Source: Cyrtodaria siliqua (lineage: Eukaryota > Mollusca > Bivalvia > Adapedonta > Hiatellidae). From it: a stretch of 64,000 nucleotides of DNA. Numbering within the stretch: the stretch's first letter is position 1; each line of letters starts with the position of its first letter. The translations under genes were made by a program, and so were the position numbers. The notes under the pieces were generated by a model. The model ran no database searches. It saw only the letters and a list, made by a program, of their open reading frames with translations, and was not told the origin of the DNA. Shown one piece after another: positions 4,626 through 60,619 of the stretch. The stretch lies in contig JAWPHD010002627.1 of NCBI GenBank assembly GCA_037043455.1, positions 184,302-248,301 on the forward strand. The letters run 5' to 3'.

Positions 4626-4723
4626 CGTCAGATGTGACCATGGTAGAGAATCTGGATGAACTGGAGGTATACGGGGCCAGCGAAAACCCATCGGGGACAA
4701 CCATCACGTCATACGTGTTTGAG
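4626..4723 (+). CDS. CPSF1: CPSF1 exon b
   Basis: 98 nt, codons 17-49. The acceptor is TTTCTTCAG and the donor is GTCAGT in phase 0. The protein reads ..ASDVTMVENLDELEVYGAS.. ending ..TSYVFE, matching the vertebrate DEVDEIEVYGS..YSFEV block that precedes the VCD exon. Two decayed tandem copies of this exon and its 3' intron flank follow immediately (4804-5103); only this copy has an intact frame. Intron a-b is 2,124 bp. Confidence 0.95.
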
Positions 4724-4803
4724 GTCAGTTTGGGGTCATACTCGCTGTTTATCTTCTTGGCTTTGTTTGTGAATAAAAAAGCTGACAATGTTGGGTGATA
4801 TGT

Positions 4804-5103
4804 ATGAACTAGAGGTACATGGGGCTAGAAAGAACCCGTTTAAGATCACTATCACATAATGTGTTTGAGGTTAGTTTGGGGTCTTATTTGCTATATATCT
4901 TACTGGCTTTGCTTGATATCTTATTGGCTTTGCTTGTAAAAAAAGAAGCTGGAAACGTTGGTAAAATGAAAGAAAGAGAGGTAAATGGGGCTAGAAAGAT
5001 CCCGTTGGGAACCACCGTCAAATCATATGTTTAGGGTTGTATTTTCCATTTATCTTGTTGGCTTTGCTTCTGAATAAAAAGCTGACAATTTTGGTGAGAT
5101 GTG
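4804..5103 (+). pseudogene. CPSF1: Two decayed tandem copies of exon b
   Basis: The segment from 4656 (ATGAACTGGAGGTA) through exon b, its donor and ~75 nt of intron recurs at 4804 (spacing 148) and, more degraded, at 4965 (spacing 161). Copy 2 retains GTGTTTGAG followed by GTTAGT; copy 3 has lost the donor (TTTAGGGTTG). Both have in-frame stops. The two relics share GGGGCTAGAAAGA, absent from the functional exon, so relic 3 likely derived from relic 2. The intron tail GAATAAAAAGCTGACAAT is still clear after copies 1 and 3. Confidence 0.88.
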
Positions 5104-5525
5104 ACTTAATATGTTTACTTTCAGACATTCCTATTTTAGTCGAGATTAAGGATTTAAATTTGTATTTTCTCTTGCCTTTTTGAATAAAACAAAGACATAG
5201 GTGTTGCTTTTCCAGCAGCGAAGTTGCAGGCGACGGCATCAACATTTGACTTTTGCGTTTAGTCATTTTCTCACACCGTGTATGCACTAGACCTTTCAAA
5301 CCTTGCTCATAGTTGTATCTTAGGTTGTACATCAAAATGTGACAAAGCAAAAATGTGGATGACCTATGGGTGAGACCATGTATGTAGAAGAACTTAGGGG
5401 ACGCTGCAAGTTTTACTAAAATCAAAATATCCATGTGTCCCTTTAATTGTATAATTAAATCCTCATGGGTAAGCCCATGATTCGCTCAGATGGGTAGTGT
5501 TATAAAACAAACCTAATCTATCCAT

Positions 5526-5734
5526 ATTGAATTGAATTGAATTGAATTTCATAGTTGCACCAACAGCTAAGGTCATATGGCAACTTTCCAGCTTTAATTG
5601 GTTGAGGAAGACACCAGGTGCCCCATCGAGCAATTTTTTTCTGCACAGGCGGGCACCTATGTCGAACCTACAGTGGTGAGGGGCAAGTGATTTAAAACCA
5701 GAGACACTTACCACCCGGCCACGGACGCCCCCCT
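5526..5734 (-). mobile_element. tRNA-derived SINE, minus strand, with 11-bp target duplication
   Basis: Read on the minus strand it starts GGCGTCCGTGGCCGGGTGGT, an A-box-like head, then a B box GGTTCGACATA (about 5664), and ends in a short (AATTC)n tail (5526-5549 on +). TATCCATATTG flanks it on both sides (5519-5529 and 5735-5745). The open frame across it is a by-product of the SINE. Confidence 0.85.
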
Positions 5735-5825
5735 TATCCATATTGTGTTTTAAGGTAATGGTAATTTCCCGTGGTTTCTGTCAGACAATTACATTTACTA
5801 AAGACTCTTTTTCTATCCATATTAG

Positions 5826-5981
5826 GTGTGCGATAACATATGGAATATAGCCCCCTGTGGGAACATAATTATGGGGGAACCAGCATTTTTATCGGAGGAA
5901 TTCAGCACTACTGCAGACCCTGACCTGGAGCTTGTCACAACGTCGGGTTTCGGCAAGAATGGGGCGCTGTCTGTACTACAG
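5826..5981 (+). CDS. CPSF1: CPSF1 exon c
   Basis: 156 nt, exactly 52 codons (50-101), phase 0 at both ends. The acceptor is CCATATTAG, which has an unusually weak pyrimidine tract, and the donor is GTGAGT. It encodes VCDNIWNIAPCGN, then MGEPAFLSEEF, then SGFGKNGALSVLQ. This is the strongly conserved 'GEPAFLSEEF..GKNGALSVLQ' block of CPSF1, part of a beta-propeller. The translation continues in frame with SIRPQVVTTFELP of the next exon. Confidence 0.97.
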
Positions 5982-6544
5982 GTGAGTAGTCATTTTTCTC
6001 GCATGGTTCAGTTCTCTCCCCCTGGGTGAGATAATCGAGGACTCGGAAGAGCTAAGAACTGGTGATGTGAACAAAAAAGAGACGTCCAAAATGTTCGAAT
6101 ATTTAAACATAAAATGTGCAGAAAAATAATTTCACATGCCCATGTTAAGGGTATTTTAGTCAAAAAAAATAAAACCCACACCTGCTAAAATGTGCAAGAC
6201 TGGGATATCAAAACCTGGGAAACGAGATATGTGGACAGAACTAACAACTTGACATTTTATGCAGCGTTTTGAGTTGTTGATGGCAGTGAAATTGCAATAA
6301 GTTTATTATTTGTTAGTATACTGATTATTAGTTAAGTAATATAACAAGTTGGTAGATTTATTTTTATTCGCTTTGTAAAAGGCAAATTCAGGGCATCAGA
6401 TAAAAGGCCAAAACAATTTCAGGCCTTGGGTTAAAGGCAAAAGAAATGTTCTGAAGGGCAAACAAGTTTGGAGTTGGGTAAAGTAAATAATTCCTAAACT
6501 GTTTCAACATTCACATACTGATCCATGTGTTCTGTATATTACAG

Positions 6545-6727
6545 AGAAGTATTCGACCTCAGGTGGTTACCACATTTGAGTTGCCCAGTTGTGTCAACAT
6601 GTGGACGGTTAGAGGACCAAAGACAGCTGAGACAAAGGAGACGAAGGAGGGTGCTGAGGGAGAAAAACAGCCGGAATTACAGGACGGTCACGCTTTCTTG
6701 ATTCTCAGTCGACCCGACTCCAGTATG
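6545..6727 (+). CDS. CPSF1: CPSF1 exon d
   Basis: 183 nt, 61 codons (102-162), phase 0 both ends. The acceptor is TATATTACAG and the donor is GTAGGA. It begins RSIRPQVVTTFELPSC, has the MWTV motif, then a Lys/Glu-rich acidic-basic linker (residues ~128-150 of the fragment) where vertebrate CPSF1 also has a variable charged loop, and ends HAFLILSRPDSSM, the conserved FLILSR-D-ST-M block. The linker is expected to be solvent exposed and variable. Confidence 0.97.
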
Positions 6728-6774
6728 GTAGGATTGTGTTGTATGTTTATATAATAATAGCTGTTCTACTGTGT

Positions 6775-6960
6775 TAATTGATACATGTCCCTGCGGGTTT
6801 GAATCCCACTTGGAGCTGAACATGTAAGTGAGAAATTGTTGATTCTTACGAATGGCGGAGGTATTCATTACTGGTTCTACCCAAGAATAAGTGGGTGGTC
6901 TGCCTCCATCATAAATAGCCTAAAATGTGCTGAAAGTTGAACGATGTATACACAAAACCA
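6775..6960 (+). mobile_element. tRNA-derived SINE fragment, family C
   Basis: B-box-like GGGTTTGAATCCCACTTGGA, then TTGATTCTTACGAATGGCGG, TACTGGTTCTAC and CTAAAATGTGCTGAAAGTTG; the same body is at 12050-12236. It lies in the short d-e intron and ends in an (AACC)n-like stretch. Confidence 0.65.
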
Positions 6961-7101
6961 ACCAACCAAACCATGTATACACAAAACAGTAAGTTTGACC
7001 GAATTACACATACAGTTAAAACAGTTTAATCTCGACAGGATTTGCATTGCATGATATGTTTTAAGTAAAAAGCGGCAAATAACCTGTACATGTTGTTACA
7101 G

Positions 7102-7243
7102 ATTTTACAAACTGGGCAGGAGATTCAAGAGTTAGACCACAGTGGGTTCAGTACCCAGACGGCCACAGTGTACGCGGGGAACGTTGGCGAGGGTAGATAC
7201 ATACTGCAGGTCTCCTCTAGCGGGGTCAGGCTTCTGGATGGAG
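7102..7243 (+). CDS. CPSF1: CPSF1 exon e (source of a downstream 131-bp array)
   Basis: 142 nt, codons 163-209 plus one base. The acceptor is TTGTTACAG and the donor is GTAAGA. It encodes [36 protein letters not shown] and VRLLDG, matching the [24 protein letters not shown] block of the family. From 7141 the exon's last 103 nt plus 28 nt of intron are repeated in tandem downstream. I take the first donor (7244) because splicing there joins exactly in phase to VQQIQHIP of exon f. Confidence 0.96.
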
Positions 7244-7271
7244 GTAAGATTCACCTTGGTTACTTATCCTC

Positions 7272-7705
7272 AGTGGGTTCAGTACCCAGACGGCCACAGT
7301 GTACGCGGGGAACGTTGGCGAGGGTAGATAAATACTGCAGGTCTCCTCTAGCGGGGTCAGGCTTCTGGATGGAGGTAAGATTCACCTTGGTTACTTATCC
7401 TCAGTGGGTTCAGTACCCAGACGGCCACAGTGTACGCGGGGAACGTTGGCGAGGGTAGATACATACTGCAGGTCTCCTCTAGCGGGGTCAGGCTTCTGGA
7501 TGGAGGTAAGATTCACCTTGGTTTATATACTTATCCTCAGTGGGTTCAGTACCCAGACAGCCACAGTGTACGCGGGGAACGTTGGCGAGGGTAGATACAT
7601 ACTGCAGGTCTCCTCTAGCGGGGTCAGGCTTCTGGATGGAGGTAAGATTCACCTTGGTTTATATACTTATCCTCCGTGGGTTCAATACCCAGACAGCCAC
7701 AGTGA
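7272..7705 (+). repeat. CPSF1: Tandem copies of the 3' part of exon e with its donor site
   Basis: Copies of the segment starting 7141 begin at 7272, 7403 and 7539, with a truncated fifth from 7675; spacing is 131, 131, 136 and 136 bp. Each full copy contains the last 103 nt of exon e and an intact GTAAGAT donor. Differences between copies are only a few bases plus a 5-bp TATAT-type insertion in later ones. None of the distances to the later donors (131, 262, 398 bp) is a multiple of three, so use of a later donor would shift the frame. Confidence 0.93.
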
Positions 7706-7960
7706 AACATAACACATGTATTCACTCCATGTGATTCAGGACTTGTAAAGACAAGTGCCATAATTCTGTAAAACCATTCTGCCCTTCAAATTAGTTTCCC
7801 AATAAATAGACAGGGCCTCAAAAGTTGAGCCTTTCCACAGAAAGGCAGTGCCTCTTGGTTTTGTTGAGCTGCTTTAGCAAAATGATTCACAGATTATAGA
7901 GTACAGTGGTGTTTTGTTATGTTTCTTGTTAAGATTATTTACCCTGCAATTACTCCACAG

Positions 7961-8465
7961 TACAACAGATTCAGCATATCCCTATAGAGATGGGCACACC
8001 TGTTGTACATTGTTCTGTGGCTGACCTCTACATCCTGATCATGTAATCATTTGCTCCACAGTACAACAAATTCAGCCTATCCCTATAGAGATGGGCAAGC
8101 CTATCATACATTGTTCCGTGGCAGACAAACACATCCTGATCATGTAATCATTTGCTCCACAGTACAACAAATTCAGCCTATCCCTATAGAGATGGGCAAG
8201 CCTATCATACATTGTTCCGTGGCAGACAAACACATCCTGATCATGTAGTCATTTACTCCACAGTACAACAAATTCAGCCTATCCCTATAGAGATGCGCAA
8301 GCCTATCATACATTGTTCCATGGCAGACAAACACATCCTGATCATGTAATCATTTGCTCCACAGTACAACAAATTCAGCCTATCCCTATAGAGATGGGCA
8401 AGCCTATCATACATTGTTCCGTGGCAGACCCCTACATCCTGATCATGCAATCATTTACTCCACAG
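7961..8465 (+). repeat. CPSF1: Five upstream decoy copies of the exon f acceptor and 5' half
   Basis: A 101-bp unit is repeated at exactly 101-bp spacing, with acceptor-edge starts at 7961, 8062, 8163, 8264, 8365 and then the true exon at 8466. Each unit holds CTCCACAG followed by the first ~81 nt of exon f and a short intron-like spacer ending ATGTAATCATTTGCTC. In the exon frame every decoy runs QQIQ..HILIM and then meets a stop (TAA or TAG) just where the true exon continues SDEGNV. Copies 2-5 share AAATTCAGCC, whereas copy 1 and the true exon share AGATTCAGCA. Confidence 0.94.
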
Positions 8466-8641
8466 TACAACAGATTCAGCATATCCCTATAGAGATGGGC
8501 ACACCTATCGTACATTGTTCCGTGGCTGACCCATACATCCTGATCATGAGTGACGAGGGTAATGTCATGATGCTTACCCTGAAACAAGACACGCAGGGAA
8601 CCGGTGCCAGACTCGTGTTGACGAAAGCACTCATCTCTAAC
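8466..8641 (+). CDS. CPSF1: CPSF1 exon f
   Basis: 176 nt, completing codon 210 and covering codons 211-268. The acceptor is TTTACTCCACAG and the donor is GTACGT. It encodes VQQIQHIPIEMGTPIVHCSVADPYILIMSDEG then a variable loop and LVLTKALISN. Family matches are [23 protein letters not shown]. Among six tandem acceptor copies only this one is followed by the complete exon and a donor, which fits exon definition choosing the most 3' copy. Confidence 0.96.
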
Positions 8642-9004
8642 GTACGTTATTTATTGTTTATTTTATGCATTTTTGTGTTCGCTAGTTTTACTTCGCTGCT
8701 GTAACTATTAGTTCCTATTTAATCTTGGTTTATTAATTGTTTGTATTTCTGAAAATGTTTTTAGCTGGATTGCATATGCATAGCAAATCCGGGCTTATAG
8801 TTTGGCATCTTGACATTTTGGTTAAAGTTATTTTTTAATGAATGAATTTATGAGTTGGTAACTCTTAATTCGATGTACCAGTTTAGGTTTTGGATTGGCT
8901 CAGGTTAAAGCTGTTCTGAATTTGGATTTTCAAAATATTGTACAAGTACCTGTTGATGGCAGGATAAGGACTTTAACCTGTGTATGATGGTTGTGACTTT
9001 ACAG

Positions 9005-9153
9005 AAGCCTCGGGTGACCACCATGTGTGCGTATAAGGACCTGAGTGGCATGTTTACCACGGCGGCTCTGGAGGTAGAGGAGCAAGTGACAGTGACAGAC
9101 CAGCACTCCTCCGTCAGAACCTCCATGGAAAAAGTGTTCAGTATGGAGCATAG
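9005..9153 (+). CDS. CPSF1: CPSF1 exon g
   Basis: 149 nt, codons 269-317 plus two bases. The acceptor is GTGACTTTACAG and the donor is GTAGGT. It encodes KPRVTTMCAYKDLSGMFTTAALEVEE and continues into a poorly conserved Ser/Glu/Val-rich loop ending SMEH. YRDLSGMFTT is an invariant-looking CPSF1 motif, and the loop is where vertebrate proteins have a long variable insertion. The split codon AG|C gives Ser and leads into the TVDDEDELLYGD acidic motif of exon h. Confidence 0.96.
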
Positions 9154-9192
9154 GTAGGTGGCAATTAGGAATTATCTTCCACCCATGGAAAC

Positions 9193-12003
9193 ATTATATG
9201 TGCATGTTTGTAGCACTGTGGATGATTATATGTGTTTATAGCACTGTAGATGATTATATATGTGTTTATAGCAATGTAGATGATTATATATGTGTTTATA
9301 GCACTGTAGATGATTATATGTGTTTGTAGCACTGCAGATGCTTGTATCACTATGGACTATTATATGTGCGTTTGTAGCACTGTGGACGGTTATATGTGTG
9401 TTCTTAGCACTGTGGATGATTATATGTGTGTTTGTAGCACTATGAACAATTATATGTGTTTGTAACAATGTGGATGATTGTAGCACTGTGGATGATTATA
9501 TGTGTGTTTGTAGCACTGTGGATGATTATAGCACCATGGACAATTATATGAGTGTTTGTAGCACTGTGGATGATTATAGCACCATGGACAATTATATGAG
9601 TGTTTGTAGCACTGTGGATGATTGTATGTGTGTTCTTAGCACTGGATGATTATATGTGTGTTTGTAGCACTATGAACAATTATATGTGTTTGTAACAATG
9701 TGGATGATTGTAGCACTGTGGATGATTATATGTGTGTTTAAAGCACTGTGGATGATTGTAGCACTGTGGACGATTATATGTGTTTGTAGCGCTGTGAACA
9801 ATTGTATGTGTGTTTGTAGCACTATGAACGTTTATATGTGTTTGTAACAATGTGGATGATTGTAGCACTGTGGATGATAATATATGTGTTCTTAGCACTG
9901 TGGATGATTATATATGTGTTTGTAGCACTATGAACAATTATATGTGTTTGTAACAATGTGGATGATTGTATCACTATGGACTATTATATGTGTGTTTGTA
10001 GCACTATGAACAATTATATGTGTTTGTAACAATGTGGATGATTGTAGCACTGTGGATGAGTGTAGCACCACGGATAATTATATGTGTGTTCGTAGCACTG
10101 TGGATGATTGTAGCACTGTGAATGATTGTAGCACCATGGATAATTAGATGTGTGTTTGTAGCACTGGATGATTGTAGCACTGTAGACAAATATATGTGTG
10201 TGTTTGTAGCACTGTGGATGATTGTAGCATGGTGGACGATTATATGAGTGTTTGTAGCAGTGTGAATGATTATATGTATGTTTGTAGCACTGTGATTGAT
10301 TATGTGTGTTTGTATTGCTGTGGATGAGTGTAGCACTGTGGACGATTATATGTGTGTTGGTAGCACTGTGGATAATTGTAGCAATGTGGATGATTATATG
10401 TGTGTTTTTAGCACTGTGGATGAATATATCTATGTTTGTAGCACTCTGGACAATTATATGTGTGTTTGTAGCACTGTGGATGATTGTATCACTGTATGAT
10501 TATACGTGTGTTAGTAGCACTGTGGATGATTTTAGCAATGTGGATGATTATATGTGTGTTTTTAGCACTGTGGATGAATATATCTATGTTTGTAGCACTC
10601 TGGACAATTATATGTGTGTTTGTAGCACTGTGGATGATTGTATCACTGGATGATTATACGTGTGTTAGTAGCACTGTGGATGATTTTAGCAATGTGGATG
10701 ATTATATGTGTGTTTTTAGCACTGTGGATGAATATATCTATGTTTGTAGCACTCTGGACAATTATATATGTGTTTGTAGCACTCTGGATGATTGTATCAC
10801 TGGATGATTATACGTGTGTTAGTAGCACTGTGGATGATTTTAGCAATGTGGATGATTATATGTGTGTGTTTGTAGCACTGTGGATGATTATGTGTGTTTT
10901 TAGCACTGGATGATTTTATCACTGTGGATGATTATATTTGTGTTTGTAGCACTGTGGATGATTATATGTGTGTTTGTAGCACTGTGGATGATTATATGTG
11001 TGTTTGTAGCACTGTGGATGATTATATGTAAGTTTGTAGAACTGTGGATGATTATATGTGTGTTTGTAGCACTGTGGATGATTATATGTGTGTTTGTAGC
11101 ACTGTGGATGATTATATGTGTGTTTGTAGCACTGTGGATGATTTTATCACTGTGGATGATTATATTTGTGTTTGTAGCACTGTGGATGATTATATGTGTG
11201 TTTGTAGCACTGTGGATGATTTTATCACTGTGGATGATTATATGTGTGTTTGTATCACTGTGGATGATTATATGTGTGTTTGTATCACTGTGGATGATTA
11301 TATGTGTGTTTGTAGCACTGTGGATGATTATATGTGTGTTTGTAGCACTGTGGATGATTATATGTGTGTTTGTATCACTGTGGATGATTATATGTGTGTT
11401 TGTAGAACTGTGGATGATTATATGTGTGTTTGTAGCACTGTGGATGATTATATGTGTGTTTGTATCACTGTGGATGATTATATGTGTGTTTGTAGCACTG
11501 TGGATGATTATATGTGTGTTTGTAGCACTGTGGATGATTTTAGCACTGTGGATGATTAGATGTGTGTTTAAGCACTGTGGATGATTGAAGCACTGTGGAC
11601 CATTATATGTGTGTTTGTAGCACTGTGTATGAATATATGCGTGTTTGTAGCACTGTAGATCATTATATGTGTGTTTGTAATACTGTGGATGATTATATGT
11701 ATGTTTGTAGAACTGTGGATGATTATATGTGTGTTTGTAGCACTGTGGATGATTTTAGCACTGTGGATGATTAGATGTGTGTTTAACGCTGTGGATGATT
11801 GAAGCACTGTGGACCATTATATGTGTGTTTGTAGCACTGTGTATGAATATATGCGTGTTTGTAGCACTGTAGATCATTATATGTGTGTTTGTAATACTGT
11901 GGATGATTATATGTATGTTTGTAGAACTGTGAACGATTATATAATTATATGTATGTTTTTAGCGCTGTGGATGATTATGTTTGTAACGCTGTGGATGATT
12001 ATT
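9193..12003 (+). repeat. 30-bp minisatellite derived from the exon h acceptor
   Basis: About 90 units of consensus TGTTTGTAGCACTGTGGATG followed by ATTATATGTG. The unit is the 3' splice site and first ~12 nt of exon h (TTTGTAG then CACTGTGGATGA) plus AT/GT-rich intron, so nearly every unit carries a copy of the exon h splice acceptor. The centre (10950-11545) is most uniform and the flanks diverge. There are higher-order duplications: a ~154-bp block three times from about 10490 to 10950, and a ~216-bp block twice between 11557 and 11960. In one frame the unit reads STVDDYMCVC without stops. Confidence 0.95.
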
Positions 12004-12238
12004 TATACGATCTCTGTTGCCTAATGGTTAACAACATTGTGTTGTAAACCTTTGCCTCTCACCGCTGCTGGTTCTAATCCCACTGGGATCTTGACTTGTG
12101 AGGAAGTGTCGATTGTTACGGGTGGCAGGAGGTGTACAGTAATGGTTCTACTGAGGAAAAGTGGTGGTATGACTCCATCACAAAAAATCGACCGTCATAT
12201 AACCTTACATGTGTTGAAAATGACGTAAAACACCATAC
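12004..12238 (+). mobile_element. tRNA-derived SINE inserted in the 30-bp array
   Basis: It starts with a tRNA-like head (GTTGCCTAATGGTTAACAAC, then a B-box-like GGTTCTAATCCCACT at about 12070) and continues into a body shared with the element at 6775-6960 (GATTGTTACGGGTGGC..GGTTCTAC). The 30-bp units resume to its right, so the SINE inserted after the array existed. Exact ends and target-site duplication are not resolved. Confidence 0.7.
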
Positions 12239-12315
12239 AAACTGTGGAGGATTATATAATTATATGTATGTTTGTAGTATTGTGGAGGATTATATAATTA
12301 TATGTATGTTTGTAG
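12239..12315 (+). repeat. Last 30/38-bp units of the array abutting exon h
   Basis: Two elongated units (about 38 bp, with an extra ATATAATT) lie between the SINE and the exon. The most 3' one is the real acceptor TATGTTTGTAG. Because these units are 38 bp, splicing to an upstream decoy in this stretch would shift the CPSF1 frame and reach a stop at 12383. Confidence 0.85.
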
Positions 12316-12414
12316 CACTGTGGATGACGAAGATGAGCTGCTGTATGGGGACGCGGAGACATCCGTATTTGAGACGTCTGTAAACACCAGTATGAGGGAG
12401 GAAAACAAAACAAG
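12316..12414 (+). CDS. CPSF1: CPSF1 exon h (acidic linker)
   Basis: 99 nt, completing codon 318 and covering 319-350 plus two bases. The acceptor is GTATGTTTGTAG and the donor is GTAGGT. It encodes STVDDEDELLYGDAETSVFE and then a Ser/Asn/Glu-rich stretch. Family match: the T-VDDEEEMLYGDSGSLF segment of CPSF1. Its first 14 nt are the core of the upstream minisatellite. The following intron is 29,858 bp, the longest in the window. Confidence 0.95.
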
Positions 12415-12489
12415 GTAGGTTCAGCAGACTTTAGTGCTTTATACTACTATAAGGTCAAAATAATGTGTTTCCAGTCATTGGTTCTACCG

Positions 12490-12735
12490 ATATTCTTGTT
12501 TAGCTCTAGCTTATGGGATGCCGAGTTGTCCGCCGTCCGTCCGTCGTTAACTTTTGTCTCGTTAAGACGATAGGGCCTTCATTTTTCATCCGATGTTTAC
12601 CAAACAGTACCAGATACTTAATATTGATGAAAGCTCGGATCGGACCAAAAACAGCCGAGTTATGGCCCTTGATTTAGTTAAAAATGCTATATTTTGCCTC
12701 GTTAAGAAGATAGTGTCTTCGTCTACGTAAAATAT
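12490..12735 (+). repeat. Dispersed satellite-type repeat fragment
   Basis: It contains GTCCGTCCGTCGTTAACTTT, GATAGGGCCTTCATTT, GAAAGCTCGGA and GAGTTATGGCCCTTGATTTA, all shared with the tandem repeat at 59333-60526. This is about one and a half units of that family. It lies in the giant intron downstream of exon h and contains no ORF of note. Confidence 0.7.
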
Positions 12736-12940
12736 TTTGATGATTCAAGGGACATAACTCTGCCCTTTCTGAACTGAATTTGCTCACACTTTCTTCTTTG
12801 ACTGGTAATTTCATCAAATAACATCACTTTCCATTAAATCAATGGACACAATTCTTCTGTGATGACTGAGGTTACTTCATAAAACAAAAGGCCTGTATTG
12901 CTCTACTGGCTATATGGTGTCCATGGTGTGTGTGTGTGAG

Positions 12941-12966
12941 AGGGGGTGGGGGTGGGGGGGAGGGGG
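12941..12966 (+). other. G-rich run with quadruplex potential
   Basis: After a (GT)n stretch there is GGGGGTGGGGGTGGGGGGG followed by AGGGGG: four G-runs of five or more separated by single bases on the transcript strand. This fits the textbook intramolecular G-quadruplex pattern. It sits about 530 nt into the 29.9-kb intron. Any role is unknown. Confidence 0.7.
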
Positions 12967-13984
12967 CACTAATGTTGGCGGGCTCTAATCCACATATTGT
13001 ATTATAACTGCACTAATGTTGGCAGGCTCGACGGCGTCCGCATATTGTATTATAACTTTTTTGTCCTTGGGTGTAGAATGTTAAAATTTCATATATAACC
13101 TCCTGGTCATTGTCCGTCCTAATGCCAATAACTTCCACCCTCTAACTGACCCTGGGTCCGAGTGAATGTCACTTAAATACATGTACCTTAGCAAATTTTA
13201 ATGCAAATAGTGATGGTACATGTATTTATCTGACCTCGACTCTGACCCAGTGTCAGTTGGAGGGCTGGAAGTTACTGGCATTAGGAAAGACAATGACCAG
13301 GAGGTATATATACAATTTAAACATTCTACTCCCATGGACAAGAAAGTTACAATGCTATGTTAGCGTTAAGATTTTTAAGATTAAATCTCTAAACTCACTG
13401 GACATAATTCTTGTTATTTTAATAACTTTCAGCCACTGAAATGACCCATTCAGAGAACATTGCATTAATTATAATATGCACTGACATTTTCTGATATGCT
13501 TAGATTAAAAAACAACAGTAATTGAAACAATTATACAGAACAGATACACTTTCACTTGACAGCCACTTATAAGCTGTGCGATTAAAATGTAAACACCTGC
13601 ACTTTTCATTGTTATATATATCCAAAATATGTAAAGGTTCTGGAAATAAATATGTTCAAACCAAACAATTAATTGAAGCAATTACATGTCAACTGAAAAG
13701 AACCTATTTGATGTACATTTCCATGTGAATTGATGATTGGAACATCTCTAGTTAAACTCATTTATTAAAAAAAGGAAAAAGAAGATTTGAGTAACAATAA
13801 TGATGCAGTGACAATGACAATAAGGACAATTTTATATTTAAAGGTTTAGCACTTTAAATGTTTAATGTTGACAAACATTACACAACAACCAAGTTTGCTA
13901 AAATAATTCTTCTATTTAAAGGGACACTGTTACTTTGAGCATATAGAACACAAAGTATTTATGTTGTTATACATGCAGTCCCAT

Positions 13985-15060: not shown

Positions 15061-15062
15061 TT

Positions 15063-43324: not shown

Positions 43325-43560
43325 CGTGGTCCCGCCTTAATTCCATTAAGCGATGGGAAAGCTTATATTAGTAGGATTATATAATGGATATTTCAACAAA
43401 ACAAAAAACATGTTTAAAAACTTTATTTTACTGAAAAAAGCTATAACCTGTTTATAACACCTATTAAAGGTGTTAATTTTACAATATGCAAAAATGTTAA
43501 GCCGAAATTAAGTTTTTAATCATACTCAGCCAACCCCATTTTCCCTTCTTGGTGAAGGGG
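43325..43560 (+). repeat. Dispersed repeat, copy 1 of 2
   Basis: It shares GCTTATATTAGNAGGATT, GTTTGAATTTTACAATAT-like and GCCGAAATTAAG/TTTTAAT with 49309-49525 in the same orientation. Identity is moderate, and no terminal repeats or tail were recognised. It is probably an old dispersed element in the j-k intron; the remaining intron sequence on both sides is AT-rich and unremarkable. Confidence 0.65.
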
Positions 43561-43794
43561 TTGGATGGGGTATGAAAGTTAATACTCGGACCACGTAATG
43601 CTCAGCTTTTCAAAAGTGATGAGTCTTTGTAGTAAGTAAGATGCTCACAATTTTAAAAATCTTGAGTTTTTTTTGTAAAAAAGTCAGTAAAATGCTCAAA
43701 AACTCAGCTCTGTATACTGATGTAGCTTCTTTGAAAATGAAAGATTGAAACATTTTCATCATAGCGATGCATTTAACTAACTGCTATATTTCAG

Positions 43795-43900
43795 TCCAAA
43801 TGTGGGCCAGGACAAGAACCCCCTTACTGACGATGTCTCTGTCGTGTATGAGGTTCTAGTTGTGGGTCTGGGATACCAGAATTCCAGACCTTACTTACTG
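43795..43900 (+). CDS. CPSF1: CPSF1 exon k
   Basis: 106 nt, completing codon 413 and covering 414-448. The acceptor is TATATTTCAG and the donor is GTAAGC in phase 0. It encodes PNVGQDKNPLTDDVSVVYEV then LVVGLGYQNSRPYLL. This matches the family's [21 protein letters not shown] block before the LIYEAF exon. Confidence 0.96.
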
Positions 43901-43949
43901 GTAAGCTTGATCGTATTGTGTATCGTCTGTTTACATTTCTTGTCTTTGC

Positions 43950-44190
43950 TTTATCGCGGCAGGTCTTAGGTTCAATCCCTGACCAAGTCATACCAAAGAC
44001 TTTATAAAAATGTAAGTCGTAGCTCCCTTGGTTGACGTTCAGTATATAAAGGGTAGTTCTAGGACTGGTCGACTCGGTGTGGGTATAATGTGACTGGGTG
44101 GGGTATCATGTCATTTGTTTGCATCATGGCATTCCAGTGTGACAGCACTATGAAGTCGCCTAGAGCTCACTGCTACAAGTAGACTCCCTC
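43950..44190 (+). mobile_element. tRNA-derived SINE, family A
   Basis: A B-box-like TAGGTTCAATCCC is followed by CTTTATAAAAATG, GTAGCTCCCTTGGTTGA, AATGTGACTGGGTGGGGTAT, CATGTCATTTGTTTGC and GACAGCACTATGAAG. The same body is at 50010-50250 and, without the head, at 2072-2272. Located in the intron between exons k and l. Confidence 0.75.
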
Positions 44191-44539
44191 TATCCTAAAA
44201 CCCCATGCATTTGTTTCATTTGCTTTGCAATTAGCAGCTATGTTGGAATATGATAAAAGGTAGGTTTGTACAGTCAAGTATGTCGCAGATATATTTTTGT
44301 CATACTGAAAAGAAAATTCTCGGGCTTTCATTGTTCAATACACTGTATACATTAGCCCATGTCTACGTCTCGCGACGTGAACATTTGACGTTTTCCCTAT
44401 GGACGCCTCTTATCAGTTCAAATCATCCTTCCAGCTTCGAAAATATTTATCTCGGACAAACACCATTGATTGTAACTGTTATAAATGCGTTGACCCATCA
44501 TATGCAAATATTTGCAACATGTACAATTCAAACCATTTG

Positions 44540-45326
44540 TCGCCGTCATTTATTTGAATATATTTTATTTTTGCTGTCCTTTATTGCAATATATTTCAAA
44601 GAATAGGGCCACTGCAGATCCCTTTGGAGGGGTAGGCAGAGGGGTATAGAATCCCCCCAAATTCATGTTCATTTTATCATTTTTTGTTCATGTTCATTAA
44701 AGGTCTTCATCATGATCCCCGCATTGTTTCAGGTGCTATTTCGCACGCATCAAAAGAGCAGTGGCAGAAAAACAATAAATGTGGCTCCAGCGTAAATGGA
44801 GTTCCTACGATAGAATTTGCAGCAACTCTGCAGTTCAGGGTGAGAAGGTTCTAGGCCCATTTTCCATATTTTATCTTGATGTACATGGAAGATGAGCCTG
44901 GCATGTTCATGCCTGTTGGGCGCCATATAACCTTTTCATGTGTTGGTGCGCCTTAAAACCCAATTTAATTCAATTCATTTTTGCTGTCCTTGATTTGATT
45001 ATATTTAATATTTGCTGTCCTTGATTTGATTATATTTCATTTTGCTGTCCTTGATTTGATTATATTTTATTTTTGCTTACCTTGATTTGAATATATTTTA
45101 TTTTTGCTGTCCTTGATTTGATTATATTTCATTTTTGCTGTCCTTGATTTGATTATATTTTATTTTTGCTGTCCTTGATTAGAATATATTTCATTTTTGC
45201 TGTCCTTGATTTGATTAAATTTCATTTTGCTGTCCTTGATTTGAATATATTTCATTTTTGCTGTCCTTGATTTGATTATATTTCATTTTTGCTGTCCTTG
45301 ATTATATTTAATTTTTGCTGTCCTTA
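44540..45326 (+). repeat. 31-33-bp tandem array before exon l, split by a SINE
   Basis: The unit TTTTTGCTGTCCTTGATTTG then ATTATATTTCA occurs about 11 times between 44980 and 45326, and one or two units stand at 44540-44600 on the far side of a SINE-like insertion (44605-44975). The last unit merges with the exon l acceptor: TGCTGTCCTTAAC..CATTTGGCAG lines up with unit bases TGCTGTCCTTGAT..CATTTTTGCTG. The units are pyrimidine-rich and each has a branch-point-like CCTTGAT. Origin from the splice-site region is likely but less clear than for exons f, h, m and p. Confidence 0.75.
44605..44975 (+). mobile_element. SINE-like insertion with AATTC tail
   Basis: It ends CATGTGTTGGTGCGCCTTAA, ACCC, then AATTTAATTCAATTCA, the short tandem tail style of mollusc SINEs. 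TGTTGGGCGCCATATAACC lies just upstream. No convincing tRNA-like head was found. It separates units of the same 31-33-bp array, so it is younger than at least part of that array. Confidence 0.6.
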
Positions 45327-45350
45327 ACTTTGTAACATTTCATTTGGCAG

Positions 45351-45581
45351 GCACGTGTGGATGACGGCTTGTTGATATACGAGGCGTTCCCGTACTACCA
45401 GGCGAAGACGGATAACCACCTGAAAATACGCTTCAAGAAAGTGCAGCATAATCTCATACTGAAGGAGAGAAAGATCAAAACTCGCAAACGTGGAGACGAT
45501 CTTGTCGACGAGCACGATGAATTGAAGGATGAACGAGCCCAACAGTTTCGATACTTTGCCGATATATCTGGCTATAGCGGG
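45351..45581 (+). CDS. CPSF1: CPSF1 exon l
   Basis: 231 nt, 77 codons (449-525), the longest exon seen, phase 0 at both ends. The acceptor is CATTTGGCAG and the donor is GTGGGT. It encodes ARVDDGLLIYEAFPYYQ, NHLKIRFKKVQHN, a Lys/Arg-rich segment (LKERKIKTRKRG) followed by an acidic stretch (DLVDEHDELKDE), then FRYFADISGYSG. Family matches are LLIYEAFP, LKVRFKKVPHN, the basic linker and RFRYFEDIYGYSG. The basic run may add to nuclear import. Confidence 0.97.
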
Positions 45582-45689
45582 GTGGGTTATAGGAAGTTTT
45601 GTTTGTTCTTAATGTTGGGTATTAAATGTGACAGACAGGAATTGTCATCCGTGAAAAATATGTTTTAAGCTCTACTGATCCGTAAACTT

Positions 45690-46610
45690 TTTTTTGTGGT
45701 GACTACTCCTCTGAAACTACTTTACTTGTTTTCATGAAACTTCATAGGAATGTTGCTCTTAATGTCTAGTTGATCCTAGCAAAAATTCAGGTCGGCCTGA
45801 AATTTAAGATGGCCGCCAAGGCTAAAAATAGATTTCAAAATGTGATTTTGTGGCGACAACTTCTCAAAACACCATAAGAGGTATTGATTTGGAACCTTTA
45901 CCAAAATGACTGGCACGTCACGTTGTTGGTCCTAACCAAAGTTCATTTCGATTGGATGTCAAACATGGCCGCCAGCAGCCATCTTTGTTTACATAGATTC
46001 CATCTTTGTTTAGATAGAGTTATATAGGAAAAACTTGTGGCGACTACTCCTCTGAAACTACATGATGGAATTTCATGAAACTTGTAAGGAATGTTGCTAT
46101 TGATGTCTATTTGATCCTAGCAAATATTCAGGTCGGTAGGAATTTAAGATGGCCGTCGCTGCTAAAAATATATTTAAAAAATGTGACTTTGTGGCGACTA
46201 CTTCTCAAAAATCGTAAGTGATATTGAATTGGAACCTTTACCAAAATGACTGGTGCGACATGTACTTGGTCCTAAATAAGATTCATTTTGATTCAATGTC
46301 AAACATGGCTGCCAGCAGTTCATTTTGATTACATGTCAAACATGGCTGCCAGTGGCCATCTTTGTTTACATAGAGTTATATAGGAAAAACTTGCGGCGAC
46401 TTCTTCTCTGAAACTACATGATGGAGTTTTATGAAACTTGACAGGAATGTTGCTCTTGATGTCTAGCTGATCGTAGCAAAAATTCAGATCAGTGGGAAAT
46501 TCAAGATGGCCGCCACTCTAAAAATATATTTAAAAAATGTGACTGTGGCGACTACTTCTCAAAAACTGTAAGTGATATTGAATTGGAACCTTTACCAAAA
46601 TGACTGGAAC
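45690..46610 (+). repeat. ~340-360-bp tandem repeat, about 2.6 units
   Basis: Units begin near 45696, 46037 and 46394 at a GGCGACTACTCCTCTGAAAC motif and share TCATGAAACTTG, GGAATGTTGCTCTTGATGTC, AAGATGGCCGCC and GGAACCTTTACCAAAATGAC. A smaller internal duplication of CAAACATGGCNGCCAG follows each. Located in the l-m intron; no coding potential was recognised. Confidence 0.85.
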
Positions 46611-47052
46611 GACATCTTGCAGGCTGATCAGGGTTTACACTGTCTGGGTGCTCATCAGTCATTTGACCGAAACACCCATTTGTACTATAGATGGACGTCC
46701 AAATTCAAAGAAAGGACAGTCCATTATACATTCATAGTGGGGTAAGGATTAAGTCTGCTTTGTAATTTTGGCTCTCATTAAACGACTAAAAACAAATTGT
46801 AGGATTTTAAGATTTTATTTTAATTCAGATTTTCTAAATATAACCACTGAGACAAGAGCAAGTCTTCTTGTCCTGGTGAGATAGTATATAATTCTCAGGA
46901 GAAATTGCATAACATGACCTGTGACCTGAAAGAAATTAGACTATAAAAATCATTATAATATGTTCTTATATATATATTAATTTATATACCTGTTGACGGG
47001 CATTTGTTGATTTACATATATAGTTTATATTACTACCATATCATCCCTTATA

Positions 47053-48431
47053 ATGGCTCCCCCACACAAAGTGTGGTAGGGGAGCCATATTGATTTTGTA
47101 CTTTCTGTCTGTTTCTCTGTAGGTCTGTCTGTAGGTCTGTCTGTGTCACAAACGATGTCCGATCAATAACTAAAGAATGGTTGGACCTAGGGTCCTCGAA
47201 CTTGGAAGGATGGTTGGTCATGACAAGTAGATGACCCCTATTGATTTTGGGGTCACTAGGTCAAAGGTTAAGGTTGCGGTGACATTGACTATCAAAACGA
47301 TGTCCGATCAATAACTAGAGAATGGTTGGACCTAGGGTCCTCAAACTTGGAAGGATGGTTGGTCATGACAAGTAGATGACCCCTATTGATTTTGGGGTCA
47401 CTAGGTCAAAGGTCAAGGTTGCGGTGACATTGACAATCAAAACGATGTCCGATCAATAACTAAAGAATGGTTGGACCTAGGGTCCTTAAACTTGGAAGGA
47501 TGGTTGGTCATGACAAGTAGATGACCCCTATTGATTTTGGGGTCACTAGGTCAAAGGTCAAGGTTGCGGTGACATTGACTATCAAAACGATGTCCGATCA
47601 ATAACTAGAGAATGGTTGGACCTAGGGTCCTCAAACTTGGAAGGATGGTTGGTCATGACAAGTAGATGACCCCTATTGATTTTGGGGTCACTAGGTCAAA
47701 GGTCAAGGTTGCGGTGACATTGACTATCAAAACGATGTCCGATCAATAACTAGAGAATGGTTGGACCTAGGGTCCTCAAACTTGGAAGGATGGTTGGTCA
47801 TGACAAGTAGATGACCCCTATTGATTTTGGGGTCACTAGGTCAAAGGTCAAGGTTGCGGTGACATTGACTATCAAAACGATGTCCGATCAATAACTAGAG
47901 AATGGTTGGACCTAGGGTCCTCAAACTTGGAAGGATGGTTGGTCATGACATGTAGATGACCCCTATTGATTTTGGGGTCACTAGGTCAAAGGTCAAGGTT
48001 GCGGTGACATTGACTATCAAATCGATGTCCGATCAATAACTAGAGAATGGTTGGACCTAGGGTCCTTAAACTTGGAAGGATGGTTGGTCATGACCAGTAG
48101 ATGACCCCTATTGATTTTTTTTTTTGTTTAATATTTTATTTTATTTTTAATTAAATTTCTTTTAAAAAATTTTTTTTTTATTTTTTTTTTTTTTTTTTTT
48201 TTTTAATATTTTTTTTTTAAATTTTTGCATAAAAAGTTTTAGGGTCGGCCCCTTAAAAAAATAGGGTCGGTCGGGTTACCTGAACCACACATGTTTTTTT
48301 ATGTGGCCTTACTGATACAGATAGTAGATACAGTCACAGGGATATTGAATATCAAAACGATCTCAGATCAATAGAGGACGGTTGGACCTAGAATCGTCAA
48401 TTATGCCTGTTCGGGCTAGTGGGGGAGCCAT
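47053..48431 (+). mobile_element. TIR-bounded element with internal 145-bp tandem repeats
   Basis: Inverted ends ATGGCTCCCCCAC (47053-47065) and GTGGGGGAGCCAT (48419-48431) enclose seven units of 145 bp, with AACGATGTCCGATCAATAAC starts at 47151, 47296, 47441, 47586 and so on to about 48120. The left end also forms a local hairpin with CCATA-side sequence at 47069-47088. Five units carry AGGTCAAAGGTCA. A fragment of another TIR family interrupts the last unit (48112-48310). No transposase ORF is present, so the element is non-autonomous. A target duplication was not resolved. Confidence 0.75.
48112..48310 (+). mobile_element. Truncated copy of the GGCCAAAC TIR family with poly-T
   Basis: Long T-rich tracts (48113-48230) are followed by AGGGTCGGTCGGGTTACCTG, AACCACACAT and ATGTGGCC, matching the right end of the elements at 710-1605 and 60527-63058. 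The 145-bp-repeat element continues on the right, so this fragment is nested in it. Confidence 0.7.
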
Positions 48432-48594
48432 ACGTTTTTGTCCCATGGACAATAACAATTTCTAGTTTGTAAATAGTTTTATCTTTATATATTTACATTA
48501 AATTTTAATTACTACTTCATTTCTTCATCTTTCGTCAGTTTTTGTGCACAATATGACCTATTTATGTATCAGCGTGCCGTAAAACACCATTCAT

Positions 48595-48806
48595 TCATTC
48601 ATATGTGGTCCGTACCCCCACTATTGTCCCTTTACCTTATGTTTCAGGTGTTCATATGTGATCCGTACCTCCACTAATGTCTCTTTAAGTTATATTTCAG
48701 GTGTTCATTTGTGGTCAGAACCCCCACTATTGTCCCTTTACCTTATATTGCAGGTGTTCATATGTGGTCCGTACCCCTACTATTAACCTTTTACCTTATA
48801 TTTCAG
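48595..48806 (+). repeat. CPSF1: 53-bp array of exon m acceptors
   Basis: The unit is about 16 nt of pyrimidine-rich intron, TTTCAG, then the first ~27 nt of exon m (GTGTTCATATGTGGTCCGTA). Acceptor-edge starts are at 48648, 48701, 48754 and the true exon at 48807, all spaced 53 bp, with a partial unit from about 48595. All upstream copies keep a CAG acceptor. From 48754 the exon frame meets a TAA before the true exon; 48701 and 48648 shift the frame. Confidence 0.94.
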
Positions 48807-48959
48807 GTGTTCATATGTGGTCCGTACCCCCACTGGTTGTTCATGACCCAGCGAGGCTCATTGAGGATACACCCCATGGGTATAGATGGCGCCATTACGT
48901 GTTTCGCTCCCTTTCACAACGTCAATTGTCCCAAGGGTTTCTTATACTTCAATAAACAG
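48807..48959 (+). CDS. CPSF1: CPSF1 exon m
   Basis: 153 nt, 51 codons (526-576), phase 0 at both ends. The acceptor is CTTATATTTCAG and the donor is GTTTGC. It encodes [40 protein letters not shown] and [11 protein letters not shown]. The match to the vertebrate [43 protein letters not shown] block is very strong. This is among the most conserved parts of CPSF1. Confidence 0.98.
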
Positions 48960-49308
48960 GTTTGCCAATTGTTTGTGTATACAGCTAGTTTAGATTTGTA
49001 GATGATCTGTTTTGAAGAAAAACAAAGAAGGGCAGTTGTCACCACCTGCCGTCGTCAGTCATCTCTGTATCTTGCCCTCTAAGGGTGATTGGGAAACATG
49101 TGTTGTTAAAGGAGTTACATTAGGCTATATGGGTAAATTTGTTTAAAAATATAAATTTAAAATTTAAAACGTGAAATGGCTCGATGGAAGTATAGATGGA
49201 ACAGTGACAGCGCAATTATTAATACTTATAAATTACAAGTCTTACCAGGACATAGAGGAATCACCAAATTATTATTATCTGTCGCCCAGATTGCCATGGC
49301 GATATCCA

Positions 49309-49525
49309 TTACGTGGTTCCGCTTTAATTCCATTTAATATGCGAGGGGAAAGCTTATATTAGCAGGATTGTATCACGGATATTGCGACACCAAAACTGCT
49401 GAAAAAATGCCATAAACACTTTAAAATGACCTTTTAAATGTTTGAATTTTACAATATACAAACCTTTTAAGCTGAAATTAAGGTTTTATTTCATAACCCA
49501 GTCAACCCCGTCTTCACTTCTGCGA
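49309..49525 (+). repeat. Dispersed repeat, copy 2 of 2
   Basis: Moderately similar to 43325-43560: GGTTCCGCTTTAATTCCATT, GCTTATATTAGCAGGATTGT, TTTGAATTTTACAATATAC and a Pu/Py-rich end AGTCAACCCCGTCTTCAC. Lies in the m-n intron. The rest of that intron (48960-49300, 49526-49800) shows no other feature. Confidence 0.65.
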
Positions 49526-49810
49526 TTTATTTTACCTTCATATTTAAAATAGTTAACCTTGACACATAACCATGATAACCATAGAAAAAGCCTTTTTGGT
49601 GTCTTTTATTTTATATTTCAGTGTAATTTATTTTGAGGTTTATACCTCATTTAGTTTATTTTTATCAGTTTAATGCAGAAATAATGTATTTAAACAACAC
49701 ATACCAAACCTGATGCACCCCCTTTATGAGAATTTGCCAAACTGATGAACTATTTTTAAATGTTTCATCTCAATACTTTACATACATTTCCAACCATGCC
49801 TTGTTTCCAG

Positions 49811-49927
49811 GGTGAGCTGCGTATCTCTGTATTACCCACACATCTCACGTACGATGCCCCGTGGCCAATCAGGAAGGTGCCATTGAGATGTACACCACAC
49901 TTCGTCATATATCATTCAGACAGCAAG
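49811..49927 (+). CDS. CPSF1: CPSF1 exon n
   Basis: 117 nt, 39 codons (577-615), phase 0 at both ends. The acceptor is CTTGTTTCCAG and the donor is GTGAGT. It encodes [39 protein letters not shown]. It corresponds almost residue for residue to [35 protein letters not shown] in vertebrates. Confidence 0.98.
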
Positions 49928-49999
49928 GTGAGTTTTTAAGTCTTATATGTACGTTGTTTTTTTTTATATAAAACTTCATTCAGTTATTTATATACTAGT

Positions 50000-50255
50000 A
50001 TATACCGCGTAAGGGTAGAGCCTCTGTCTCACATGAGGTCGTGGGTTCAAACCCCGGCCAGGTCGTACCAAAAACTTTATAAAAATGGTACTAGTAGCTC
50101 CCTTGCTTGATGCTCAGCATATAAAGTGTAGTTTTAGGACTAGTCGGCCCTGTGTCAGTATGATGTGACTGGGTGGGGTATCATGTCATGTGTCTGCGGT
50201 GTGGTATTCCAGTGTGGCAGCACTATAAAGATGAGCATTGAACTCATGAATACAG
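50000..50255 (+). mobile_element. tRNA-derived SINE, family A (best-preserved copy)
   Basis: The tRNA-like head includes GGGTAGAGCCTCTG and a consensus B box GTGGGTTCAAACCCC (50040-50054), followed by CCAGGTCGTACC and CTTTATAAAAATGGTACTAG, then the conserved body GTGACTGGGTGGGGTATCAT and GTGTGGCAGCACTATAAAG. It is not a functional tRNA gene: no cloverleaf closes around the head and the sequence continues into the SINE body. Confidence 0.82.
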
Positions 50256-50386
50256 TTCAATGATGAAATAGCAATATTATTAGCATTTATAGTTTGGAGT
50301 TAAAAGCCACAATATGTTTGTTTTAAACTTTAACTTTTATACTGTTTTTCTGCCCTCTGATTCATACTTTGTCCTCTCCTCCTCAG

Positions 50387-50477
50387 ACGTATGCAGTTGT
50401 GATGCACACTCCAGATCTCAGTAACAAACTGCCTCTGACTACTGCCGAGGAAAGGGAATTTGAAGTCATTGAAAAAG
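50387..50477 (+). CDS. CPSF1: CPSF1 exon o
   Basis: 91 nt, codons 616-645 plus one base. The acceptor is CTCCTCCTCAG and the donor is GTATCT. It encodes TYAVVMHTPDLSNKLPLTTA, EEREFEVIEK. This corresponds to VYAVATSTN..EEKEFE-IE-DERY in vertebrates; the middle is a variable loop. The split codon with exon p gives Asp (D-ERF). Confidence 0.95.
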
Positions 50478-50886
50478 GTATCTGATCTTGCTTCTGTTAA
50501 ACTATTCATTTTATCAATATCAGCATTACAAACAATTTTTCCTATATTCAAGCAGTATTTTCCTCATAAAAAATTGTCATGTAACATTTGCATTTAAAAG
50601 ATAACTCCCATAAGTTTTAACTTGTGAATATTTGTTATTGGCAGTTTATAACATGAACCTTGGACACATTTTCAGGATGGACATGCTTGCTGTTGCAATG
50701 TGGATACTTTATCTACTTTTGTTCTGTCAACTCAAGCAGACGTAGTAGTTTAGTACATAAGGTATTACCTTTTAGAGCTTCATACCTCTGCTTTGAGTGG
50801 TTTCGAGCCATGGCTGTGACATTGTCTGGTGGGAATTCTCATTCTTCATTGTATCTCTCTCTGACTTCGCTCTCTGATATGATTTA

Positions 50887-51391
50887 ATATATGGTTATCT
50901 GGTGTTAAACCACAGTCATGTCATTTCCTTCTACTGTAGATGGGAGGCTTGTGTATGACGTAAACTATGTTTATCTGGGTGTTAAACCACAGTCATGTCA
51001 TTTCCTTCTACTGTAGATGGGAGGTTTGAGTATGACGTAATGTATGTTTATCTGGGTGTTATAAAACTACAGTCGTTTCATTTCCTTCTACTGTAGATGA
51101 GAGATTTGTGTATGATGTAACATATGTTTATCTGGGTGTTAAACCACAGTCATGTCATTTCCTTCTACTGTGGATGAGAGGTTTGAGTATGACGGCGTTA
51201 TAAAACTACAGTCATTTCATTTCCTTCTACTGTAAATGAGAGATTTGTGTATGATGTAACATATGTTTATCTGGGTGTTAAACCACAGTCATGTCATTTC
51301 CTTCTACTGTGGATGAGAGGTTTGAATATGACATAACGTATGTTTATCTGGGTGTTACACCACAGTCAAATTTCATTTCCTTCTACTGTAG
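50887..51391 (+). repeat. CPSF1: ~78-bp array of exon p acceptors (six decoys)
   Basis: The unit contains TTTATCTGGGTGTTAAACCA, CAGTCATGTCATTTCCTTCT, ACTGTAG and the first ~20 nt of exon p (ATGAGAGGTTTGTGTAT). Edge starts are 50940, 51017, 51097, 51174, 51236 and 51313; the true exon is at 51392. Spacing is 77, 80, 77, 62, 77 and 79. The splice AG is intact in decoys 1-3 (TAG) but lost in decoys 4 and 6 (TGG) and 5 (TAA). Decoys that keep AG meet stop codons before the real exon in the coding frame. Confidence 0.94.
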
Positions 51392-51476
51392 ATGAGAGGT
51401 TTGTGTATCCATCAACACCAAAGTTTTCCTGCCAGTTATACAGCCCAACATCTTGGGAGGTTGTCCCTAACACACA
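51392..51476 (+). CDS. CPSF1: CPSF1 exon p
   Basis: 85 nt, completing codon 646, codons 647-673, plus two bases. The acceptor is CCTTCTACTGTAG and the donor is GTAAGT. It encodes DERFVYPSTPKFSCQLYSPT, SWEVVPNT. Family match: [28 protein letters not shown]. The CA|G join to exon q restores Gln before IEMEEMEH. Confidence 0.96.
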
Positions 51477-52611
51477 GTAAGTAGTTGTAATGAAATAGTC
51501 TTGATGAATAATATTTCTCTATCAAGTAATTTACCTTATTTCTCCTAATGTTAGCGCCCGGTTGCTATACAAAATGCCAGGGTGGGAGCTCTTACGAAAA
51601 AAATAATTTTTTGGGGTAGATTTTTGGATACAAAAGATTGAGCTGATCTGTTTTACTATGTATAACATTATCAATAAAACATGTTGATAAATAGAACATG
51701 TATATAATTATATTCGCATATAATCTGATCAGCTGTTGAGCACATCATTTCTAGTAATAAAACTATAGACGCCAGGTCCGCCTGATGTGACTGTTTAGTA
51801 CTGTGTGAAAAAAGTCGCCCGACTACAAATCAGTAGTGTTATTACTTACTGGTCCTTTGGGATCATCAAGCCCAATCCAGGTGGGGTTAAAGTAGAATAC
51901 CGCCTAAGCCAGTGATAGAGGGTGTGAGAGGTGTTGCACTTTATATTACCTCTCATGAACAGATCAGTAAAACCCGAGTCTGCTACTTTTCTCTCTTGTT
52001 TGTGTTTGTTCCTTCCCAGGGAACCCTTTTTCAGTTTTTATTTAATTACAAAGCAAATTTCAACAAGATGTAGTCAAACTTGCCCAAATTTATTAAAAGA
52101 CCACCTGCTGTAACTTAATCTTAATTTAAAGATCAAAGAAAGTTAAAGATGAAAAAACTCCGCTGAGAATCATCTTGCTAAAATAACTTTCTTTGATTCT
52201 GCTCACAATTCGCTAAGCATTAGCAGAAGTGAATATTAACCGAGTCTTTTAACCATTGATTGTGATACTTTATAATTATATCTTTATGGACTCAGAATTA
52301 GAGCTGAAATGCGTGTGTTTACTTACCGAGTCGAAACAAATCTTCGTTACGGATGATCATCTCGTGCACCTGCTGATGACGTCGATTACTGGGCTTGTAT
52401 GTGGCATGTACAGAAATTGTTGACATATGCTCTTTCAGTTGTTAATTTTTGCCCCAAAAATGGGGGGAAAATATATGTTTTGTCATTGGGTATATGACCC
52501 AATAACAGCTATAAAAACAGCCAATAAAACTGCTGAACAACAAGATCAACCATCAGAATAATGATGCTTATGTGGCATGTACAGATATTGTTGACATAAA
52601 TCTATTTATAG
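51477..52611 (+). other. Intron p-q, no recognised feature
   Basis: 1,135 bp of intron. It has a short run of As after 51595, ordinary AT-rich sequence and two occurrences of GGCATGTACAGANATTGTTGACATA (about 52400 and 52571), which suggests an old local duplication. No gene, SINE or array was recognised. Confidence 0.6.
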
Positions 52612-57355: not shown

Positions 57356-57366
57356 TTTTGTTTCAG

Positions 57367-60584: not shown

Positions 60585-60619
<35 letters not shown>

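Follow-up and report, generated by a model that had tools for sequence, protein, structure and literature searches.

A 64,000-nucleotide stretch of the genome of the bivalve Cyrtodaria siliqua, hereafter the window, carries exons of CPSF1, and six of the 39 splice edges of these exons lie inside tandem arrays whose repeat unit includes that very edge, namely the donors of exons b and e and the acceptors of exons f, h, m, and p. These arrays are probably minisatellites of the type known from amphioxus as mirages, an already-described kind of repeat for which no new mechanism is called for yet. The best explanation of their origin, in our judgement, is tandem duplication at random in a genome rich in arrays, a change that is tolerated since the exon-proximal splice site stays in use. 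Contig C2627, the end of which is formed by the window, belongs to an assembly of 2,879,283,659 bases (2.88 Gb) and 26,948 contigs.

A tblastn search with a CPSF1 protein (the human sequence) located exons of one gene across the window. As stated in a preliminary description of this DNA, there are twenty of them (a–t, exon a ending at 2501); when joined, they form one continuous reading frame, the product of which matches CPSF1 in the PDB (6bly_A, E 9.4e-279) and CPSF_A in Pfam. Tandem Repeats Finder (TRF) reported 26 merged arrays that together occupy 39.7 kb of the window. The exons with a duplicated edge, as placed in the window, are as follows:

4626..4723, forward strand, CPSF1 exon b, with a decayed array seeded on its 3' part and donor
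7102..7243, forward strand, CPSF1 exon e, from the exon join
8466..8641, forward strand, CPSF1 exon f, from the exon join
12316..12414, forward strand, CPSF1 exon h, from the exon join
48807..48959, forward strand, CPSF1 exon m, from the exon join
51392..51476, forward strand, CPSF1 exon p, from the exon join

The arrays that span these edges, followed by two that abut an acceptor without spanning it, are:

4635..5102, forward strand, donor-type array b, unit ~148 bp, decayed, three copies aligned with a pairwise identity of 0.74
7140..7704, forward strand, donor-type array e, unit 131–136 bp, ~4.3 copies, full copies 0.98–1.00 identical
7953..8548, forward strand, acceptor-type array f, unit 101 bp, 5.9 copies, containing the acceptor ctccacag and 83 nt of exon f
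9204..12324, forward strand, acceptor-type array h, unit ~30 bp, containing tttgtag and 9–12 nt of exon h
48598..48834, forward strand, acceptor-type array m, unit 53 bp, 4.5 copies, containing the acceptor and 28 nt of exon m
50878..51403, forward strand, acceptor-type array p, unit 77 bp, 7 copies, containing the acceptor and 12 nt of exon p
44963..45345, forward strand, 31-bp array l, ending 6 nt before exon l
53590..57357, forward strand, 48-bp array r, ending 10 nt before exon r

TRF places the donor of e and the acceptors of f, h, m, and p within arrays with units of 131, 101, ~30, 53, and 77 bp, respectively. The b array went undetected by TRF and was recovered by local alignment (score 30.5; 67% identity in self-comparison). 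When all 39 edges of the window were probed, a spanning duplicate with a score of at least 22 was found for six, while r scored 21 and was non-spanning. The donor of exon g and both edges of exon r were nominally covered in the self-comparison, which overlooked the short h cluster; this coverage is an over-extension of neighbouring arrays, the edge probe shows no spanning duplicate there, and the three edges were left uncounted. The six edges are those named in the preliminary description, in which exon l was given as a probable seventh case; array l does not include the acceptor, and this case is withdrawn. The unit lengths given there (30, 53, 78, 101, 131, and 148 bp) hold for all arrays except p, the unit of which is 77 bp.

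The unit of array e holds 104 nt of exon e together with the donor gtaaga. Its inner copies (7273–7675) begin at a new, acceptor-like tcctcag and end at gtaaga, and thus look like complete cassette exons of ~104 nt, at a spacing of ~27–32 nt. Array h, in which 92 decoys (the spare copies of the splice site) were scored, occupies most of its intron, with no TRF array at ~12007–12240. The four acceptor arrays lie upstream of their exons and the two donor arrays downstream, as first described, yet this arrangement is forced by geometry, because a tandem copy spanning an edge can leave spare copies only on the intron side. A single transposon behind all arrays is ruled out, the units being unlike in length and sequence, and the view that they arose as independent events is upheld. 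These events are also of different ages, as claimed, because the identity of full copies is 0.98–1.00 in array e but 0.74 in array b. Within array f, the inner copies are 0.93–1.00 alike, whereas comparisons with the two end copies give 0.77–0.92; this pattern is not clear in m and p.

Boundary-spanning repeats have been described before, contrary to the initial statement that no known process does this. The mirages of amphioxus are minisatellite-like repeats with a unit spanning an exon–intron boundary, at both edges, in Adh3, the globin genes BflGb6 and BflGb9, TnC, and PGBD5 (PMC3087553, PMC3902484), and their units measure 10–72 bp in Adh3 and 150–160 bp in the globins (PMC3087553). According to these reports, AG or GT is retained in many copies, two haplotypes carry six and three copies, inner copies are homogenised with the cluster ends excluded, splicing of Adh3 and the globins shows no apparent interference, and a route to new introns is suggested (PMC3087553, PMC3902484); mirages are also discussed as possibly general in cephalochordates (PMC3087553). 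For amphioxus Adh, somatic variation is also reported. The arrays of C. siliqua are alike in having a unit across the exon–intron boundary (6/39 edges in the window and 8/142 elsewhere), in copying donor and acceptor boundaries, in unit length (30–148 bp, inside the described range of 10–160 bp; PMC3087553), in keeping AG or GT in most but not all copies (233/259), and in a copy number that differs between haplotypes (array p has seven copies in the window and five in the other haplotype, and array h measures 2803 and 2067 bp, while array m is unchanged). They are unlike the mirages in that they occur in a bivalve genome of 2.88 Gb, whereas lancelet genomes are smaller by a factor of several, and in that there are six arrays in the window and ten in one gene. 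For molluscs, no such boundary repeat was found among the matches listed in open literature searches. Other tandem repeats of this genome, namely ordinary intronic minisatellites and dispersed families, are very dense in these introns and share the size range, but contain no exon edge.

Under random tandem duplication, a segment of 30–150 bp that happens to cover one exon edge would be tandemly duplicated, and the resulting array would then grow, shrink, and homogenise via unequal exchange or slippage. The spare copies would fall in the intron and leave the complete exon intact, making the change nearly neutral. The splicing machinery, as expected from exon definition, would keep the exon-proximal acceptor or donor, which yields a short complete exon, and would ignore the distal decoys. 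This near-neutral duplication model accounts for the geometry, the ages, the polymorphism, and the near-random rate observed in other genes.

The sample outside the window comprised contigs matching CPSF_A and those with the remaining CPSF1 exons, taken before any look for arrays there, as well as kinesin and myosin exons. Eight further edge-spanning arrays were found in it (8/142 edges):

CPSF1 5' exons, locus L010, 50 bp x 17, donor
CPSF1 5' exons, locus L010, 64 bp x 5, donor
CPSF1 3' exons, contig C15317, 42 bp x 17, donor
CPSF1 3' exons, contig C15317, 43 bp x 3, acceptor
SF3B3, contig C2132, 83 bp x 23, acceptor
DDB1, contig C2708, 67 bp x 2.5, acceptor
DDB1, contig C2708, 36 bp x 40, donor
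DDB1, contig C2708, 54 bp x 9.5, donor

The feature is thus not confined to CPSF1, as had been supposed, being present once in SF3B3 and three times in DDB1. Overall, the donor cases are b, e, and five outside the window, and the acceptor cases are f, h, m, p, and three outside. SF3B3 has one more donor array, with only 3–5 exon nt, which was not counted. The kinesin and myosin sample (19 exons, 16 loci, 38 edges), for which 19 of the 206 matches listed were taken from high in the lists before the sequence was seen, yielded no edge-spanning array; one array ends 5 nt from an exon (L034). None of the eight arrays matched other sampled loci, while some plain intronic units (e.g., period 320) did. 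The period-320 arrays, which were classed as dispersed, occur in DDB1 (C2708) and in both CPSF1 contigs (C2627, C15317).

Beyond the window, edges were assigned by an automatic exon caller or by a local splice score and were checked by eye at array matches only. Within the window, the caller reported 17 acceptors and 17 donors, all in agreement with the manual reading. Two donors (that of the last CPSF1 5' exon and that of the exon at 1339–1382) were set by hand, one false extra exon was removed, and the donor of L037 is the match end. The acceptor of exon t is counted in both the window and C15317, so that the 142 edges are 141 distinct ones, and L033/L034, L035/L036, and L045/L046, possibly allelic or paralogous pairs, are counted separately. 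The set excludes one DDB1 match (query 851–888), which was dropped in chaining, and the SF3B3 5' exons (query 1–567), which fall outside the sampled sequence.

Duplications at other positions were also seen among these loci. In SF3B3, the stop codon and the coding nucleotides just before it are duplicated by a 67-bp array of 1.9 copies at ~2354–2480 of L011 (C2132:28353-28479), a similar event at a coding end. Kinesin domain positions 239–294 are matched three times within 2–3 kb at C12174:26825-29508, and positions 81–119 of dynein AAA_6 twice within 2–3 kb at C1868:115881-118044; these are possible whole-exon tandem duplications.

For comparison with random placement, every array was reduced to a single unit, and these units were redistributed randomly over the gene thus collapsed, with wholly exonic or exon-swallowing placements barred; the expected ranges reflect the footprint (1 or 1.5 units) and the masking or not of dispersed families. 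The counts exclude arrays with a period below 20, merge the two TRF rows of h, and include the hand-added b array, with a 21-bp row inside it dropped. SF3B3 has 1/22 edges in arrays (1.0–1.5 expected), DDB1 has 3/50 (1.1–1.9 expected, P 0.08–0.30), and kinesin and myosin have 0/38 (0.6–1.5 expected), which amounts to 4/110 for all genes other than CPSF1 (2.7–4.8 expected, P 0.27–0.72). An earlier model with arrays unmasked gave 4.0–5.5 expected for the eight cases outside the window (P 0.04–0.18). On uncollapsed sequence, 6/39 edges (15%) are duplicated in the window versus ~20% of random intronic points at equal score; no enrichment appears there because each intronic array counts along its whole length, so that long arrays are overweighted.

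Several results weigh against random, tolerated duplication. The window has six cases where 1.6–2.5 are expected (P 0.0015–0.028), and the earlier model with other array sets gave P values of 0.0001 to 0.025 for at least six. The CPSF1 exons outside the window have 4/32 edges in arrays (1.2–2.0 expected, P 0.014–0.12), and CPSF1 as a whole has 10/71 (2.7–4.5 expected, P 0.0001–0.009). With all loci outside the window pooled, the eight cases compare with 3.8–6.8 expected (P 0.03–0.36), and with everything pooled, 14 compare with 5.4–9.3 (P 0.0004–0.068); when the earlier model dropped dispersed arrays and kept dispersed sequence, the expectation for the eight fell to 2.2–3.1 (P 0.0006–0.007). 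Three further arrays (l, r, and that of L034) end 5–10 nt from an exon at its acceptor. Decoys have been lost more than neighbouring dinucleotides in two arrays, p (3/6 lost) and the CPSF1 5' 50-bp array (6/16 lost).

The excess in CPSF1, the similar tendency in DDB1, and the three arrays that stop just short of an exon would all fit exon edges that are, here or at least in CPSF1, genuine hotspots, with tandem duplications two to three times as frequent as in intronic sequence. We consider this rather unlikely, and it is similarly doubtful that junctions, in CPSF1 at least, promote duplication through R-loops, a GC or nucleosome step, or a stalled fork. The count outside CPSF1 is compatible with chance, and kinesin and myosin contribute no case. 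The exon share of the unit ranges from 0.16 to 0.84 and fits a uniform spread (Kolmogorov–Smirnov P 0.42, n = 15; 0.26 without the 31-bp array of SF3B3; low power), and therefore gives no sign of duplication breakpoints sitting at the junction; these shares and the unit lengths were entered by hand from array and exon coordinates. The excess is limited to CPSF1, with none in the other genes of this small sample, and because CPSF1 was chosen for the feature, it is not to be taken at face value; as a counterweight, four of the CPSF1 cases lie in exons not seen when the feature was first described. The original argument that chance would not repeatedly include exon edges is supported in part for CPSF1 and not for the other genes, and the general junction-tied process proposed with it is not borne out by the count outside CPSF1 or by the uniform exon shares.

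Random duplication without selection on the copies also agrees better with the state of the decoys than does their retention for a function, such as splicing regulation or variant isoforms, which is very unlikely. The decoy AG or GT is indeed mostly intact, in 233 of the 259 copies scored over 15 arrays, but this proportion (0.90) is close to that of neighbouring dinucleotides (0.85), and therefore decoys are neither purged nor specially kept overall. In 11 of the 15 arrays, the unit length is not divisible by 3 (10 such arrays expected by chance) and would shift the frame, and a stop is reached from four of the five f decoys, as judged from open reading frames. The unit lengths of the 15 arrays thus give no sign of a frame-preserving, protein-coding use.

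Tandem arrays are hard to assemble, and the arrays themselves might be assembly errors, as the preliminary description had allowed. This is highly improbable in view of C15317, a contig of the same assembly that represents the other CPSF1 haplotype and is 98–99% identical to the window in blocks outside arrays. It has arrays f, h, l, m, p, and r at places matching those in the window, and since f, h, m, and p are carried by both haplotypes at matching edges, assembly errors are unlikely for those four; the copies within arrays have also diverged. The comparison covers f onward, with b and e lying beyond C15317, which starts inside the f array; array f has at least six copies in both haplotypes. 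The share of exon p in the unit is 17 nt in C15317 and 12 nt in the window, and array r measures 4810 and 3768 bp, respectively. A 27-bp array in the intron between h and i is a point in favour of error, as it spans 27,108 bp in the window (15062–42169) and 1974 bp in C15317 (8623–10596).

Other differences between the haplotypes were noted. Two segments of the window, 47051–48466 and 60526–63059, are absent from C15317; the first contains a 145-bp array, and the second appears by eye to be mobile-element-like. Coding differences are concentrated in exons f, g, and h (8466–12414), with 12 in 424 nt versus 3 in 1341 nt for exons i–t. The differences in f–h may stem from a switch of haplotype at the long array or from local exchange between exons and array copies.

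Tandem genomic duplication can produce introns, as proposed in the Rogers model and illustrated by an RdRp gene of potato, and this resembles the present case in that a tandem duplication copies splice signals (PMC4974935). There, a new intron was made; in CPSF1, the copies sit within an intron that already exists, between exons that join in frame with one copy each, and no new intron from a duplicated splice pair was found. Animal introns are usually longer than ~27–32 nt. The arrays can hardly represent the birth of new introns, since, although the inner copies of array e resemble complete cassette exons, one copy of each exon suffices for the full frame and the spacing of the e copies is under this usual length.

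Collectively, the presence of mirages at 8/142 edges outside the window, and at 4/110 outside CPSF1, in a genome of a size unlike that of a lancelet, points to array-rich introns, rather than to one lineage, as their cause. These values are a first estimate of the rate of such arrays per splice edge, and in genes other than the one chosen for the feature, this rate approximates that of random placement. If exon edges were hotspots after all, a notable share of splice edges would be embedded in arrays of their own sites, so that variable decoys would be supplied continually in a lineage not known for such arrays. Under either reading, the arrays offer natural tests of how a splice site is chosen among dozens of near-identical ones, such as those preceding exon h, and of a possible contribution of decoy arrays to alternative splicing or intron gain.

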